Of a DNA stretch of 64,000 nucleotides, positions 25,921 through 31,083 are shown one piece after another. A model generated the notes under the pieces. The model ran no database searches. It was given only the letters and a program-made list of their open reading frames with translations, and was not told where the DNA came from. The DNA is taken from positions 1 through 64,000 of the forward strand of contig NZ_ADES01000011.1 in assembly GCF_000263595.1 (NCBI RefSeq), written 5' to 3'. The DNA comes from Gardnerella vaginalis 1500E (GTDB lineage: Bacteria > Actinomycetota > Actinomycetes > Actinomycetales > Bifidobacteriaceae). The position numbers and the translations under genes were made by a program. Positions within the stretch are counted from its first letter, which is position 1. Each line of letters starts with the position of its first letter.

Positions 25921-26112
25921 TAAACAAAATACTAATAAGCACTAATATTTTTAATAATAATTTTAATAATATTTTCAGTTTGTGCGCGTGTTGTGTTTGC
26001 ATTTGTACTTTCATAGTGTTAGCATCATTTCAACACAAACGAATATCGAATATTTCGGTTGAGGTTTGTGCATTGAACCACAAGTAGTTAATGAGTTTAG
26101 GAGGCAGTCATC
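25921..26112 (+). other. Leader region upstream of the Trp leader peptide
   Basis: 192 bases without a gene. It holds a near palindrome CGAATAT-CG-AATATTTCG around 26040-26057 and a TTGTG/CACAA dyad (26066-26070 with 26079-26083). A weak promoter (TTGCAT, 17-base spacer, TAGCAT) ends near 26025. The dyads could be an operator or part of the leader RNA fold. Confidence 0.35.
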
Positions 26113-26217
26113 ATGCGTAACATGAACATGAATGCTGAATCTATGAATACTCTTAACGCTGCACGTATGTGGTGGTGGCAGTCTTCTCTTTGGCGTGAGT
26201 TTACTCTGAAGTTTTAG
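26113..26217 (+). CDS. Trp-rich leader peptide (attenuator) of the ECF transporter operon
   Basis: 34-codon reading frame with a strong ribosome site (AGGAGGCAG) and ATG 26113. It contains three consecutive Trp codons (26170-26178, residues 20-22) and a fourth at residue 27, and ends TAG at 26217. A factor-independent terminator follows 24 bases later (26242-26268), then the S-component gene. This is the classic layout of transcription attenuation by ribosome stalling at scarce charged tRNA-Trp. A competing pairing is possible between 26178-26187 and 26216-26224. No Trp biosynthesis gene follows; the regulated genes encode a transporter. Confidence 0.8.
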   Translation: MRNMNMNAESMNTLNAARMWWWQSSLWREFTLKF

Positions 26218-26241
26218 AAGCTGCATATAAAAGCTTGTAGA

Positions 26242-26268
26242 AGACCTCCGAGGTAAGCTCGGGGGTCT
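26242..26268 (+). terminator. Attenuator terminator after the Trp leader peptide
   Basis: 11-bp stem (26242-26252 with 26258-26268, one G-T pair) with a 5-base loop, followed by TTTTT. Its left arm contains CCTCC (26245-26249), which could also pair with the GGAGG of the leader ribosome site (26100-26104). Confidence 0.88.
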
Positions 26269-26381
26269 TTTTGTATACAAGCCTCAAATCTCAAAAATAA
26301 CCAAATCACAAATCACAAATCACAACAAAATATTCGATAGCTTTATATGAATAATATAAAGCCCAAACAAGGAGAGAAATC

Positions 26382-27008
26382 ATGGCTCAAGAAATTAACG
26401 AAACCGTTAAGGAAACTTATAACAATAGTGCAAACGCAACTACAGATGCTGCAGCTGCGATGATGCAAAATGTGAAAGTTAAGAATCATGCATTAGATAT
26501 TACTTCGTTAGTGTTAGTTGCGGTACTTTTTGCGGCTGGATGCATTCTTGACTTTACTGTTGCAAAATCTCTTTCTATTGGAAATATTCAGCCTGAGTTT
26601 GTTATTGCTTCATTCTGCTTGTCAATTTTGCTTGTTAGGCCGAAGATTTACCAGGGTGCTATTATTGGTGCTCTTGCTGCAACGTTAATTCAATTTAATA
26701 CTTCGATTCCGTTCCTTGAATATGCTTGCGATATTCCAGCTGCAATAGTTATGACTGCAATGTTAATTGGCTATATTCGCTTATTCCCAAAGGATGCAGC
26801 TCGTAAAGTAAGCGTATTCCCATTCATTGCTACTTTCATTACTACAGTAATTTCCGGTTGTATTTTTGCTCTTATTGCTGCATTCTTCGTATTGCATTCT
26901 CCAAACATGGTTCTTGTGATGTTCCCAATTATTTTGGGCACTGCAGTATTTAATGCAGTTGTTGTAGAAGTGCTGTTCACGCCATTGAAGATTGTATTGC
27001 ATAAGTAA
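26382..27008 (+). CDS. ECF transporter substrate-binding (S) component, probable tryptophan importer
   Basis: 208-residue integral membrane protein. A polar N-terminus (1-40) is followed by about five to six hydrophobic helices, with LSIGNIQPEFVIASFCLSIL, VRPKIYQGAIIGALAATL and an ending in LFTPLKIVL. Size, helix pattern and the motif PEF...R near the third helix recall TrpP-like S components, though I cannot align it. It stands ahead of the fused ATPase and EcfT genes, forming a complete ECF importer. Specificity for tryptophan is inferred from the Trp leader peptide just upstream, not from the protein. Ribosome site AAGGAGAGAA before ATG 26382. Confidence 0.8.
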   Translation: MAQEINETVKETYNNSANATTDAAAAMMQNVKVKNHALDITSLVLVAVLFAAGCILDFTVAKSLSIGNIQPEFVIASFCLSILLVRPKIYQGAIIGALAATLIQFNTSIPFLEYACDIPAAIVMTAMLIGYIRLFPKDAARKVSVFPFIATFITTVISGCIFALIAAFFVLHSPNMVLVMFPIILGTAVFNAVVVEVLFTPLKIVLHK

Positions 27009-27109
27009 ATCAATTTTTATACAAATTATTTTGCATAAAATGTGTTTTTTATTGCACTTAGTATGCATGAATGATTGCAGTGTATAGAAAAAGTAAAGGT
27101 ATAAAAGTG

Positions 27110-27144
27110 AGTTGATGCCAGTCATATTGCGATTGGCATCAACT
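27110..27144 (+). terminator. Strong hairpin between the S and ATPase genes
   Basis: 11-bp perfect stem AGTTGATGCCA/TGGCATCAACT (27110-27120 with 27134-27144), extendable by three pairs, then TTTTATG. It looks like a terminator but stands inside the expected operon, 45 bases before the ATPase start, so it could reduce ATPase/EcfT expression relative to the S component or separate two transcripts. Confidence 0.75.
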
Positions 27145-27188
27145 TTTATGTTAGTAAATAGTTTGAGTTTGATTGGTGTGTTACAGTT

Positions 27189-29126
27189 ATGGATGGTATG
27201 CATCAGCAAAATGAACTGATTGCTGGAAGAAAATTAGTTGAACAAGCCCCACAACGAAACATAAAGAGCCTTATGAAAAAACCTAATGATTCACACTTAG
27301 AAGATCCGCTACTTGAATTGAAGAATGTGTCTTTTCAATACGGTACAAATCGTAGTGAAAATACTTTAAGCGTTGAGGATAATAAGTATGTGCTTAATAG
27401 CGTAGATCTTAAAATTTACCCTGGTGAATTTGTTGGAATTATTGGACCTTCTGGCTCTGGTAAAACAACTCTTGCTTCACTTTTTTCTGGCGCTATTCCT
27501 CACCATTATTCTGGCGAACTTTTAGGAAGCGTTAAGATTGCGGGTCAAGACACTAAAAATCTTGCTCTAACCAATATTGCTTGCTTGATTGGATCTGTTA
27601 TTCAAGATATTGATGCGCAAATGGTTGCTGCAAACGTTGAAGACGAGCTGCTTTTTGGATTGGAAAATTTTGGAGTTCCTCACGATGAAATTCCTAATCG
27701 TATAGCTAGTTCTTTAGAAACTGTTGGTATTAGTGATTTGCGCAATCGAGATTTAGATACATTGTCTGGTGGGCAGAAGCAGAAAGTTGCTATTGCTGCA
27801 ATTTTGGCACTTAAACCTAAAGTTTTAGTGTTGGATGAACCAACATGTGCGTTGGATCCTGTATCTTCCCGCATGATTTTTTCTATTCTTCAAAATCTTA
27901 ATAAAAAATTTGGTATTACTATTGTTGTCATTGAGCAAAAAGTAGCTTTGTTGAGCGAGTATTGTAATCGTCTTATAGTGCTTTCTAAAGGTGAACTTGT
28001 TCTTGATGCTCCTGTTTCTTTAGCTCTTAAAGATATAGAGTTACTTCGTAAAGTAGGTATTAACTATCCGCGTACTACGCATTTAATTAAGCAGTTGCAA
28101 GATGAACAGATTTGTAATCCTGCTGAGCTTACTGTTGGCGTGGAAGAAACTGTAAATACTATTGTTAAAACATTACGTACGGATTATTCTAAACTTTCTA
28201 ATTCAAATAACTCGAATAATGCAGAATCTGTTTTAGAGTCTCATAAAGAGGCTTTTATAAAAGCTAATAATTCAGATAATTCTAACAAGCCATGCCTTTC
28301 AATAAATAATGTGAGTTTTGCTTATGCGAATGGTGTTAAAGCTCTAAAAGATGTTTCATTTAATGCAAATAGCGGTGAATTAATTGCGTTAATTGGAAGA
28401 AATGGTGCTGGAAAAACAACAATTACAAAGATTATTAATGGTCTATTAAGACCTACAGAAGGTAGTGTTGCAATAGATGGCATCGACACTAAGTCGCTTC
28501 GCATTAGTCAAATAGCAAAATATGTATCTACCTTATTCCAAAATCCTGATCGACAATTATGCAAAGAAACGGTACTTGAAGAAGTTACTTTAAGCTGTAT
28601 TTTAATTGGTCAGAATGAGGACGAAGCTAAAGCTCATGCAATGGAAATTATTGATGAGTTGGAGCTGGATTCTAAAGCTAGCCCGTTTATGCTTTCTAGA
28701 GGACAGCGTCAAATGGTTGCTTTAGCTGCAACAGTTGTAACGAATCCTAAGATTCTTCTTCTTGACGAGCCAACTTGTGGCCTTGATTACAAGGAATGCA
28801 TGAGAATTATGCAAGTTGTAGAGCGTTTAAGAAAAAACGGTTGCTGCGTGATTATGGTTTGTCACGATATGGAAGTTGTGCTTGATTATGCAACTCGACT
28901 TATAACAATTAACGATGGAAAGCTTATTATTGATGGTTCAGCGCATGATGTGTTTGAAAAGCCGGAAGTGTGCTCTGCTGCAGCATTGTATCCGCCATTA
29001 TTGTGTTCCGTTTCTCAAGGCTTGGTTGCGCATGGATTTAATAAGTGTAATGGCTTGTATGTGCGAGCAGAATTAGTAGAAGCGTTGCGTGGCGAAAAAA
29101 TCGTAAAACAGACTGTACAGAATTAG
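27189..29126 (+). CDS. ECF transporter fused double ATPase (EcfA-EcfA')
   Basis: 645-residue protein with two ABC ATPase domains. First (about 35-285): Walker A GPSGSGKTT, signature LSGGQKQKVAIAA, Walker B VLVLDEPTCALDP. Second (about 370-610): Walker A GRNGAGKTT, a less standard signature LSRGQRQMVALAA, Walker B ILLLDEPTCGLDY. The domains are joined by an Asn/Ser/Asp-rich linker (about 335-368). Together they should power the S component and EcfT next door; many actinobacteria have this fused form. ATG 27189 is used; ATG 27198 is possible, and neither has a strong ribosome site. Confidence 0.92.
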   Translation: MDGMHQQNELIAGRKLVEQAPQRNIKSLMKKPNDSHLEDPLLELKNVSFQYGTNRSENTLSVEDNKYVLNSVDLKIYPGEFVGIIGPSGSGKTTLASLFSGAIPHHYSGELLGSVKIAGQDTKNLALTNIACLIGSVIQDIDAQMVAANVEDELLFGLENFGVPHDEIPNRIASSLETVGISDLRNRDLDTLSGGQKQKVAIAAILALKPKVLVLDEPTCALDPVSSRMIFSILQNLNKKFGITIVVIEQKVALLSEYCNRLIVLSKGELVLDAPVSLALKDIELLRKVGINYPRTTHLIKQLQDEQICNPAELTVGVEETVNTIVKTLRTDYSKLSNSNNSNNAESVLESHKEAFIKANNSDNSNKPCLSINNVSFAYANGVKALKDVSFNANSGELIALIGRNGAGKTTITKIINGLLRPTEGSVAIDGIDTKSLRISQIAKYVSTLFQNPDRQLCKETVLEEVTLSCILIGQNEDEAKAHAMEIIDELELDSKASPFMLSRGQRQMVALAATVVTNPKILLLDEPTCGLDYKECMRIMQVVERLRKNGCCVIMVCHDMEVVLDYATRLITINDGKLIIDGSAHDVFEKPEVCSAAALYPPLLCSVSQGLVAHGFNKCNGLYVRAELVEALRGEKIVKQTVQN

Positions 29127-29181
29127 TAGAAGCAATAGCAAATAAAAGTAGCAAATAAAGTAGTAAAGGCGTCTGATATTT

Positions 29182-29955
29182 ATGAAAACGAGATTGTTAA
29201 CTTACCAACCAGGTAACACTTTTCTTCATCGCACTAATCCTATTGCAAAACTAATTCTTGCTGCGAGTGTTGTAATAAGCGTGTTTATTGCTAAACAGTA
29301 TTCCGCGCTTATTGCGATTGCAGCTATTATTTTCATTGGCATGGCTTTTACTCGAGTTGTTAAAACATTATCTGGTCTTATTAAAGCTATGCTTATAATT
29401 TCTTGCGTAATGTTTCTGATACAGACTGTTATTGCTCAAAGTGGAAACTATATTTTCTTGTGGTTTACGTTGCACGGTATTGATATTGGTGCAAAAGCTG
29501 CTTTGAGATTGTTCTGCTTTGCTTTTCCTCTTGTAACAGTTCTAACGGTAACTAAATTAAACGATCTTGCAAATGCTGTAGTGCAATATTTGCATGTTCC
29601 ATACTGCTACGCTTTTACTATTACAACGGCAGTGCGTTTCGTGCCGATTTTCGCTTACGAAATGTCTCAAATCACAGAAGCTCAAATGGCTCGTGGTATT
29701 GAATATGATACTAAAAATCCGTTTAAAAAAATAAAGCTTATGATGCCGCTTATTGTGCCTCTTTTAGTTTCTTCAGTTCGAAAAGCAGACAGTTCTGCAC
29801 TTGCTGCTGAAGAGCGCGGTTTTTATTTGCGCACGCGCAAATCATCGTATTATAAATATCCATTCGGATGGCGTGGATTCTTATCTGTGATTATTTCTGC
29901 GCTTATTATTGCTTTACCAATAGTTACTTCAATCTTTTTGCCTAATCTTGTATGA
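29182..29955 (+). CDS. ECF transporter transmembrane (T) component
   Basis: 257-residue membrane protein of the EcfT/CbiQ family. It begins YQPGNTFLHRTNPIAKL (typical start with P-x-K), has about five hydrophobic helices, and the cytoplasmic coupling-helix motifs: QMARGIEYDTKNPFKKI and, in the second, AEERGFYLRT (the ARG signature as ERG). These couple ATPase movement to the S component. It follows the fused ATPase by 55 bases and precedes the prenyltransferase gene by 39 bases, so all three are likely cotranscribed. Confidence 0.92.
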   Translation: MKTRLLTYQPGNTFLHRTNPIAKLILAASVVISVFIAKQYSALIAIAAIIFIGMAFTRVVKTLSGLIKAMLIISCVMFLIQTVIAQSGNYIFLWFTLHGIDIGAKAALRLFCFAFPLVTVLTVTKLNDLANAVVQYLHVPYCYAFTITTAVRFVPIFAYEMSQITEAQMARGIEYDTKNPFKKIKLMMPLIVPLLVSSVRKADSSALAAEERGFYLRTRKSSYYKYPFGWRGFLSVIISALIIALPIVTSIFLPNLV

Positions 29956-29994: not shown

Positions 29995-31083
29995 ATGAAA
30001 AGTGTAAAAGTTTGGCTTAAAGGTGCAAGAATTTACACGCTGCCAATAGGAATAGTTCCTGTTGTTATGGCATTTGCTATTTCTCTTAGAATGATGCGTT
30101 TTTCGCATTTTGAGAAACCAATTATTAGTTTTGTGCAGTGCTTTATACAATTTTTTCTGTGCTGTGCTGTTGCAGTATTTATGCAGATTGCTGTTAATTA
30201 TGCGAACGATTATTGTGACGGCTTGAATGGTTTAGACGAGAATCGTAAGTTTCGCCCTGTGAGTAAAAGTAAAAATTCTAAGCCATTATGTGATGTATCG
30301 TGGCGTCTTGCGGATGCTGGTATTGAGTCAAAATCTGTGCTTAAAGCGGTAATAGTTTCTGCTTTGATTTCTTGCATAGCAGGTTTACTTATTGTTTTTA
30401 GCACGGGAATATTGTGGTTTATTCCGCTTGGAATTGCCTGCATTGCTGCAGTGTGGTTTTATGCAGGAGGAAAGCATCCTTATGGTTATAAAGGCTTTGG
30501 AGAAGTAAGCGCTTTTGTGTTTTTTGGCCCTGTTCCTTTTATTGGATCTTTATGTGCAATAACACATGGCATAGGTGTTCAAGCAAACAATATTTTTATT
30601 AATAGTCCATTAATGGTTTTGGCTTGTGTTTTAATGTCATTCATTCCTGGAGCTTATTCTGCATGCTTAATGATGGTGAACAATCTTCGAGATATTGCAA
30701 GTGATAAAGAACATGGAAAAATAACTGCGATGATAATGCTTGGAGAGCAAAGAGGTAGGCGTTTATGTGCTGCAGTGAGCATTGTTGCGGCGCTTTTGTT
30801 GTTAGCGTATTCGGTTTCAATTATTGTTTTTCCTTTTGAAGTTCCTTCAATATGGAACCTTTATAATGCTGAAATTTTCTTCAATTTTAGTAATTTAGTA
30901 CGCAATATTCCATTGCACCTATTTTTTGCTATTCTTCAGTGGATTATATTGGTAGCTCTTATAATAAAAGCGTATAAATTTGGCAAATGTATACTTAAAG
31001 GCGACTATAAGAATGCTTTTCCACTTTGTGTTGCTCAAACCATTTTTGCAGCTGTAGTAGTACTGTTGTCTGCGGCTGTATAA
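29995..31083 (+). CDS. UbiA/MenA-family prenyltransferase
   Basis: 362-residue membrane protein with about nine hydrophobic helices. Both Asp-rich motifs that bind the prenyl diphosphate through magnesium are present: NYANDYCDGLNG and VNNLRDIASDKEHGK, and GEVSAFVFFGPVPFIGS follows the first. This best matches 1,4-dihydroxy-2-naphthoate prenyltransferase (MenA) in menaquinone synthesis. No other menaquinone gene is in the window, and this kind of organism is not expected to make menaquinone de novo, so the acceptor may be scavenged or different. It is the last gene of the ECF operon; whether the link has meaning is open. Ribosome site AAGAGG before ATG 29995. Confidence 0.85.
   Translation: MKSVKVWLKGARIYTLPIGIVPVVMAFAISLRMMRFSHFEKPIISFVQCFIQFFLCCAVAVFMQIAVNYANDYCDGLNGLDENRKFRPVSKSKNSKPLCDVSWRLADAGIESKSVLKAVIVSALISCIAGLLIVFSTGILWFIPLGIACIAAVWFYAGGKHPYGYKGFGEVSAFVFFGPVPFIGSLCAITHGIGVQANNIFINSPLMVLACVLMSFIPGAYSACLMMVNNLRDIASDKEHGKITAMIMLGEQRGRRLCAAVSIVAALLLLAYSVSIIVFPFEVPSIWNLYNAEIFFNFSNLVRNIPLHLFFAILQWIILVALIIKAYKFGKCILKGDYKNAFPLCVAQTIFAAVVVLLSAAV

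Follow-up and report, generated by a model that had tools for sequence, protein, structure and literature searches.

Classical trp attenuators, described in Escherichia coli and for trp and trpS2 in Corynebacterium and Streptomyces (PMC1262725), combine a short reading frame containing two or three adjacent Trp codons with a terminator and a competing antiterminator, and the stop codon of the frame lies near the 5′ strand of the antiterminator. The T-box of Streptococcus suis trpX (PMC9382623) raises tryptophan uptake when charged tRNA-Trp is low and acts on genes of the Trp family, Bacillus subtilis controls Trp uptake genes through TRAP and anti-TRAP (PMC11255114), and in E. coli the leader peptide TnaC, which senses free tryptophan by means of an arrest peptide and Rho, controls the tnaCAB operon containing a Trp permease (PMC10941005). 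Comparative genomics of Gram-positive bacteria has also uncovered lineage-specific leader-peptide attenuators for histidine that replace a T-box or a repressor, reported upstream of histidine metabolism genes in Firmicutes (PMC9413887). Here we analysed a 64,000-nt stretch of DNA from Gardnerella vaginalis 1500E (contig NZ_ADES01000011.1, positions 1 to 64,000; hereafter the window), in which a Trp-rich leader peptide gene precedes an operon for an energy-coupling factor (ECF) importer. We consider it very probable that this leader is a ribosome-mediated transcription attenuator, in which the level of charged tRNA-Trp governs expression of an ECF tryptophan importer.

As far as sequence can show, the element is a classical Trp attenuator in every feature: it has a Shine-Dalgarno sequence followed by a frame with Trp codons, an intrinsic terminator before the first gene and a predicted, conserved alternative antiterminator. 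What is new is the target, an ECF importer (in some genomes a sodium:neurotransmitter-symporter family (SNF) transporter or a TrpB-like enzyme) in organisms mostly lacking trpA. It also differs from the classical attenuators in that its antiterminator engages the loop and the upper 5′ arm of the terminator, and no Rfam family matched the element at threshold, either in the window or in the loci of the gene for the substrate-binding (S) component. Like the S. suis T-box, it would raise tryptophan uptake at low charged tRNA-Trp and its targets are Trp-family genes, but its sensor, unlike that of the T-box, TRAP and anti-TRAP systems, would be the translating ribosome; Rfam scans of the window and the S loci detected no T-box. 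With tnaC it shares the control of a transporter operon by a leader peptide, but it has a run of Trp codons, an intrinsic terminator and a variable peptide. It resembles the histidine leaders as a lineage-specific attenuator and differs from them in amino acid and target genes. Our literature search, which did not extend to subscription papers, found no description of this attenuator.

The leader elements and the S, A-A′ and T genes of the window are on the plus strand. The sequence-only reading of the locus had named a strong ribosome site, a 34-codon frame that includes WWW and one further Trp, an 11-bp terminator with a T-run and genes for ECF S, fused A-A and T components, and all of these were confirmed by the sequence, the listed open reading frames, folding and profile matches. 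The Shine-Dalgarno sequence AGGAGG (26099–26104), of which GGAGG is invariant in 12 Gardnerella loci, precedes the leader peptide gene (26113–26217; ATG at 26113, stop TAG at 26215–26217), which encodes MRNMNMNAESMNTLNAARMWWWQSSLWREFTLKF; no NCBIfam model matches this peptide. The control codons, three consecutive UGG (26170–26178), are invariant in the 12 Gardnerella loci, and the fourth Trp codon (26191–26193) is present in all 12, but is not general in the leaders of Coriobacteriia. The terminator (26239–26272) has the loop GUAAG, a U run and 11 consecutive strong pairs, one of them U-G, and its stem reaches 14 pairs when extended into the U run (26239–26271). A consensus terminator scanner did not pick it up in the window, and the leader RNA folded more stably than all 200 shuffled sequences (z −4.2).

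Folding and alignment revealed three mutually exclusive RNA structures, terminator, antiterminator and protector, all conserved in Gardnerella. Region 1 (CAGUCUUCU, 26179–26187) is the 5′ strand of the protector hairpin and pairs with 26216–26223 (AGAAGCUG) in ribosome-free RNA. Region 2 (26199–26222), the 5′ strand of the antiterminator, is composed of GUUUACUCUG, AG and UUUUA.AAGCU, and region 3 (26232–26258), its 3′ strand, of AGCUU.UAGAA, CU and CGAGGUAAGC. In the alignment, GUUUACUCU(G/A) pairs with (C/U)(G/A)GGGUAA(G/A)C, and UUUUA.AAGCU with (A/G)GCUU.UA(A/G)AA. Region 3 overlaps the 5′ arm and the entire loop of the terminator, and since the antiterminator occupies the whole loop and the upper 5′ arm, the two structures exclude each other. 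We simulated co-transcriptional folding with the RNA left free by a ribosome at Trp codon 1, 2 or 3, up to the terminator loop, and every Gardnerella sequence tested formed the same antiterminator (about −17 to −22 kcal/mol). In ribosome-free folds, most Gardnerella sequences formed the protector CAG.CUUCU paired with the 3′ strand given above. An alternative antiterminator in which region 1 pairs with AGAAGAC at the base of the terminator was rejected: only a few sequences could form it, since a T-to-A change disrupts it in the G009 group and AAAAG does so in others.

On the alignment, 95.5% of the cells of the antiterminator were paired, compared with 33–65% when it was slid by 1–3 columns, and its covariation score was reached by 3 of 500 shuffles; for the combined terminator and protector structure, 98.3% were paired and none of 500 shuffles reached the score (these shuffle controls ignore relatedness). 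Within Gardnerella, two-sided compensatory changes are seen at three pairs of the terminator and at one pair of the antiterminator, where G-C has become A-U. The predicted conservation of both RNA pairings was upheld across Gardnerella.

The genus sample comprised 112 genomes, Bifidobacterium species included. The S gene was found in 12 of them (named relatives of this gene are from G. greenwoodii, swidsinskii, piotii and vaginalis; the window genome is 1.55 Mb), and each of the 12 carries the leader upstream of S, with WWWQ[S/T]SLW. Weak leader-peptide matches in other Bifidobacterium genomes (L008–L017) were discarded as reading frames lacking an attenuator context. Among the 12 Gardnerella loci, mean pairwise identity is 1.00 for the WWW codons, 0.95 for the next 12 codons and 0.84 for the terminator, versus 0.64 upstream of the Shine-Dalgarno sequence and 0.65 between terminator and S; the Trp codons are thus conserved well beyond the flanking DNA, as the earlier proposal required. 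Four of these genomes differ by 1 nt downstream of the fourth Trp codon, which places a UAA stop at +36 from the first Trp codon, and in the other eight the frame is longer, with UAG at +45 or +48. Region 2 remains nearly invariant in nucleotides despite this frame shift between lineages, and the retention of nucleotides rather than peptide points to a constraint on the RNA.

The element is not confined to Gardnerella and also occurs in Coriobacteriia, a distant class, in many bacteria of the gut and mucosae. In the named genome collection the sole S relative outside the genus was that of Parafannyhessea umbonata (Atopobiaceae), where the gene order is S, S fused to A-A′, T, and where the frame MPFLASKNWWWHSLSSLGQL and a terminator lie upstream. 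Within the sample of Coriobacteriia that we searched, S homologues were found in 204 of 398 genomes, and a Shine-Dalgarno sequence with a WWW leader frame lies just upstream in 64 of the 70 top S loci. Such short frames occur 64 times on the sense and once on the antisense strand of these loci (192 kb), which, together with the leader in 12/12 Gardnerella carriers, rules out chance. In all 30 loci long enough to tell, the leader is followed by S (one or two copies) and an ECF ATPase gene. The distance from the first Trp codon to the stop is 36 nt in nearly all Coriobacteriia leaders, the arm or loop of the terminator is the pairing partner of nucleotides +27 to +38 in 66 of 68 Gardnerella and Coriobacteriia sequences (24% in spacer-shuffled controls), and several two-sided compensatory changes in the terminator occur among 37 Coriobacteriia sequences.

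A covariance model built from Coriobacteriia only found the window element among 149 kb at its exact place (26170–26272, E 1e-5), as well as all 9 other Gardnerella loci given, which independently confirms that the window element is real and related. We cross-tabulated model matches against S in 268 Coriobacteriia genomes (taken as G506–G773; the statistics ignore phylogeny). Strong matches occurred in 103 genomes, 98 of which also carry S. Of the 103 genomes whose S homologue is close, 96 had such a match, versus 2 of the 40 with a distant S only. The attenuator on an ECF importer, proposed for Gardnerella, is supported, but is not peculiar to this genus, and precedes homologous importers in about 100 Coriobacteriia genomes.

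The operon encodes a TrpP-like ECF S component (PF17099; 26382–27008), a fused ECF A-A′ ATPase (27189–29126; TIGR04520 and TIGR04521 above cut-off) and a CbiQ-family T component (29182–29955; PF02361, E 9e-25); two ATPase domains, a T and an S protein are thus joined in one operon, as in ECF transporters. The S protein was modelled with AlphaFold from an alignment of 65 sequences, with a predicted local distance difference test score (pLDDT) of 90.7, versus 44 with nine near-identical S sequences. The model resembles solved S components for pantothenate, thiamin, riboflavin, biotin and folate (Z 10.2–15.6), and the 22 best structural matches all come from ECF transporters and, with few exceptions, are S components; the Foldseek E-values are weak (best 0.03), and we found no solved structure related to the protein by sequence. 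According to the model, the protein has the six-helix fold of ECF S components. By sequence it is a relative of the TrpP family: 38 of 65 S relatives match PF17099 at E<1e-3, every other family is matched by at most one of them, and the PF17099 cut-off is passed in 6 of 12 Gardnerella genomes and by some Coriobacteriia S proteins. The likeness to ECF importers and TrpP lies in the S, AA and T genes, the S-fold and a match to the TrpP profile that, for the window S, stays below the Pfam cut-off; a difference is that several relatives have tandem S genes. The C. glutamicum ‘TrpP’ was discarded as a precedent, as it is an unrelated SdpI-like protein (PMC11995493).

Tandem S genes precede the ATPase gene in five loci (L042 of genome G009, L043, L045, L037 and L038) and in many Coriobacteriia loci; the two Gardnerella copies are 70–76% alike and seem to have arisen by a more recent duplication than those of Coriobacteriia. 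In the window, a strong 15-pair hairpin with a short T run lies between the S and A-A′ genes (27109–27145) and could be an internal terminator or a processing site that sets S against AA-T expression. A menA-like gene (29995–31083) starts 40 bp past T and is found downstream of T in Gardnerella loci. Upstream of the operon in G009, a thiamine pyrophosphate riboswitch above threshold (L042 835–927, minus strand) reads away from it.

The leader class also precedes other genes. In five Coriobacteriia genomes with strong model matches but without S, WWW leaders or model matches lie before SNF transporters (PF00209; SNF-symporter loci L188, L189, L190, L191 and L192), and genome G578 (L193) has both an SNF-symporter gene and the ECF operon, each behind its own WWW leader. 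Weaker matches with WW(W) leaders precede TrpB-like pyridoxal phosphate-dependent enzymes (TIGR01415/NF009057) in two further genomes (L195, L197). All target types belong to the uptake and synthesis of tryptophan or aromatic amino acids, a strong argument that the signal is Trp.

The distribution of pathway genes bears on the substrate. trpA is absent from all 12 Gardnerella importer carriers, and of the remaining 100 genomes in the genus sample 97 have it; trpB is present in four carriers and has no match in eight. Across the 398 Coriobacteriia genomes S and trpA tend toward mutual exclusion (both in 35, S only in 169, trpA only in 108, neither in 86). In the window genome, trpB is found without trpA (G000:C1:172714–173907; L069 6214–7407, minus strand), preceded by a terminator and a different leader with two Trp codons, MSMNTRFWRSWRS, which together make up a further candidate Trp attenuator. 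The same arrangement occurs in Gardnerella relatives with trpB wherever the upstream region was readable; a limited scan for WW leaders at trp genes found none in three further genomes of the genus.

These features suggest the following mechanism. With ample Trp-tRNA, the ribosome would pass WWW, reach the stop codon and cover region 2, and the terminator (3:4) would halt transcription before the S gene. With Trp-tRNA scarce, the ribosome would stall at the Trp codons (+0 to +8) with its front edge short of region 2, which starts at about +28; the exposed region 2 would pair with the terminator loop and upper 5′ arm, allowing transcription of the S-AA-T operon. Without translation, the 1:2 protector would form, and then the terminator. 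We infer from the sequence that termination would respond to Trp supply in vivo and that L-tryptophan would be transported; in cells that lack tryptophan synthesis, the importer is probably switched on only under tryptophan shortage.

Two alternatives retain some form of importer but change its cargo. The sequence-only reading had left the substrate as tryptophan or a precursor such as indole, and an importer of indole or another aromatic precursor, later converted to Trp, behind the same attenuator is unlikely, although the lone trpB of the window genome, with its own Trp leader, can make Trp from indole and serine. The eight carriers without a trpB match still keep leader and importer, so that indole cannot be a generally useful substrate, the S proteins are related to TrpP, and indole crosses membranes readily. 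Tryptophan is most likely the substrate and is favoured over indole, which alone could not serve the eight carriers without trpB. The menA-like gene downstream of T in Gardnerella loci might instead suggest an importer for naphthoate, a menaquinone precursor. We regard this as the least probable of the alternatives, as the Parafannyhessea operon has no menA beside T, the gap between T and menA varies among Gardnerella, and the TrpP family and the Trp leader point elsewhere.

Other alternatives concern the sensing of tryptophan. Trp-responsive leader peptides control tnaCAB, Trp permease included (PMC10941005, PMC3902921), and a similar device, in which free tryptophan stalls the ribosome via the nascent peptide and induces the operon, could be envisaged here. 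It is very unlikely, given that the peptide after WWW varies (QSSLWREFTLKF, QTSLWRSLL, HSLSSLGQL, RDSQAVGRS, NNLSFSGQR) whereas the RNA pairing is conserved, that a run of Trp codons with a conventional antiterminator suits starvation sensing, and that induction by plenty makes little sense for the importer of an auxotroph. A riboswitch or a protein-binding RNA element with an incidental leader frame could account for the weak sub-threshold matches of some loci to the RF04312 ‘trpB motif’, which is a candidate riboswitch from Firmicutes and Fusobacteria (PMC11109978). These matches lie mostly over the terminator and reach 19–33 bits (19.4 in the window, 33 in one locus), against a gathering score of 59, and two classes share a conserved Shine-Dalgarno sequence, start codon, WWW and distance from Trp to stop, WWW being the most conserved part; we give this explanation slightly less credence still than a TnaC-like device.

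Several observations weigh against a Trp attenuator that controls a tryptophan importer. Covariation of the antiterminator in Gardnerella is modest, with one pair, and its stability z-scores range from −1.6 to −3.6. All 8 pairs of the protector (the 1:2 helix) are kept in 12/12 Gardnerella and never vary, and their conservation therefore cannot prove this helix and says nothing either way. On the full transcript the terminator is always thermodynamically favoured, so the switch has to be kinetic, like classical attenuators. A promoter scan yielded no convincing candidate, and a few Coriobacteriia genomes with a strong S lack a strong model match. TrpP (PF17099) is the only family matched by the window S protein, but at 22.9 bits versus the cut-off of 27.2, and 35 of the 204 S-carrying Coriobacteriia genomes also have trpA. 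Even so, the anatomy of the leader, its conserved exclusive pairings and the TrpP relationship support the initial proposal that a Trp attenuator controls the ECF importer.

A tree of 55 S proteins groups the Gardnerella sequences in a single clade (support 100/99), which falls among those of Coriobacteriia, next to Atopobiaceae-type sequences; the deeper joins are moderately supported and long branches are present. A PF17099 search of 395 Actinomycetes genomes matched only that of the window. The position of the clade within Coriobacteriia and the absence of TrpP from other sampled Actinomycetes make it the simplest reading that leader and operon were transferred once from a Coriobacteriia relative, with later duplication of S in some Gardnerella; importer and switch were probably acquired together. 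The +36 stop in four Gardnerella genomes matches the Coriobacteriia geometry, and the longer leader of the window lineage is therefore probably derived. More broadly, we think it likely, though less surely than the attenuator itself, that Coriobacteriia and Gardnerella possess a regulon for tryptophan salvage, comprising the ECF TrpP importer, the SNF symporter, the TrpB-like enzyme and, in Gardnerella, the lone trpB behind a leader of its own, which leader-peptide attenuators control instead of T-boxes or repressors, and that importer and attenuator moved as one cassette between classes sharing mucosal habitats.

The results suggest a likely substrate for a large set of ECF importers, so far uncharacterised, in Actinomycetota of the gut, mouth and vagina, an assignment drawn from two independent lines, the regulatory codons and the similarity to TrpP. 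They also indicate that biosynthesis-type attenuation may have been re-used for scavenging where the pathway is mostly missing, and that the attenuator was probably retained after transfer between classes. The supply of tryptophan is known to matter in the vagina and the gut, and the element would provide a sensor of Trp limitation in vaginal and gut bacteria that can be read from sequence.

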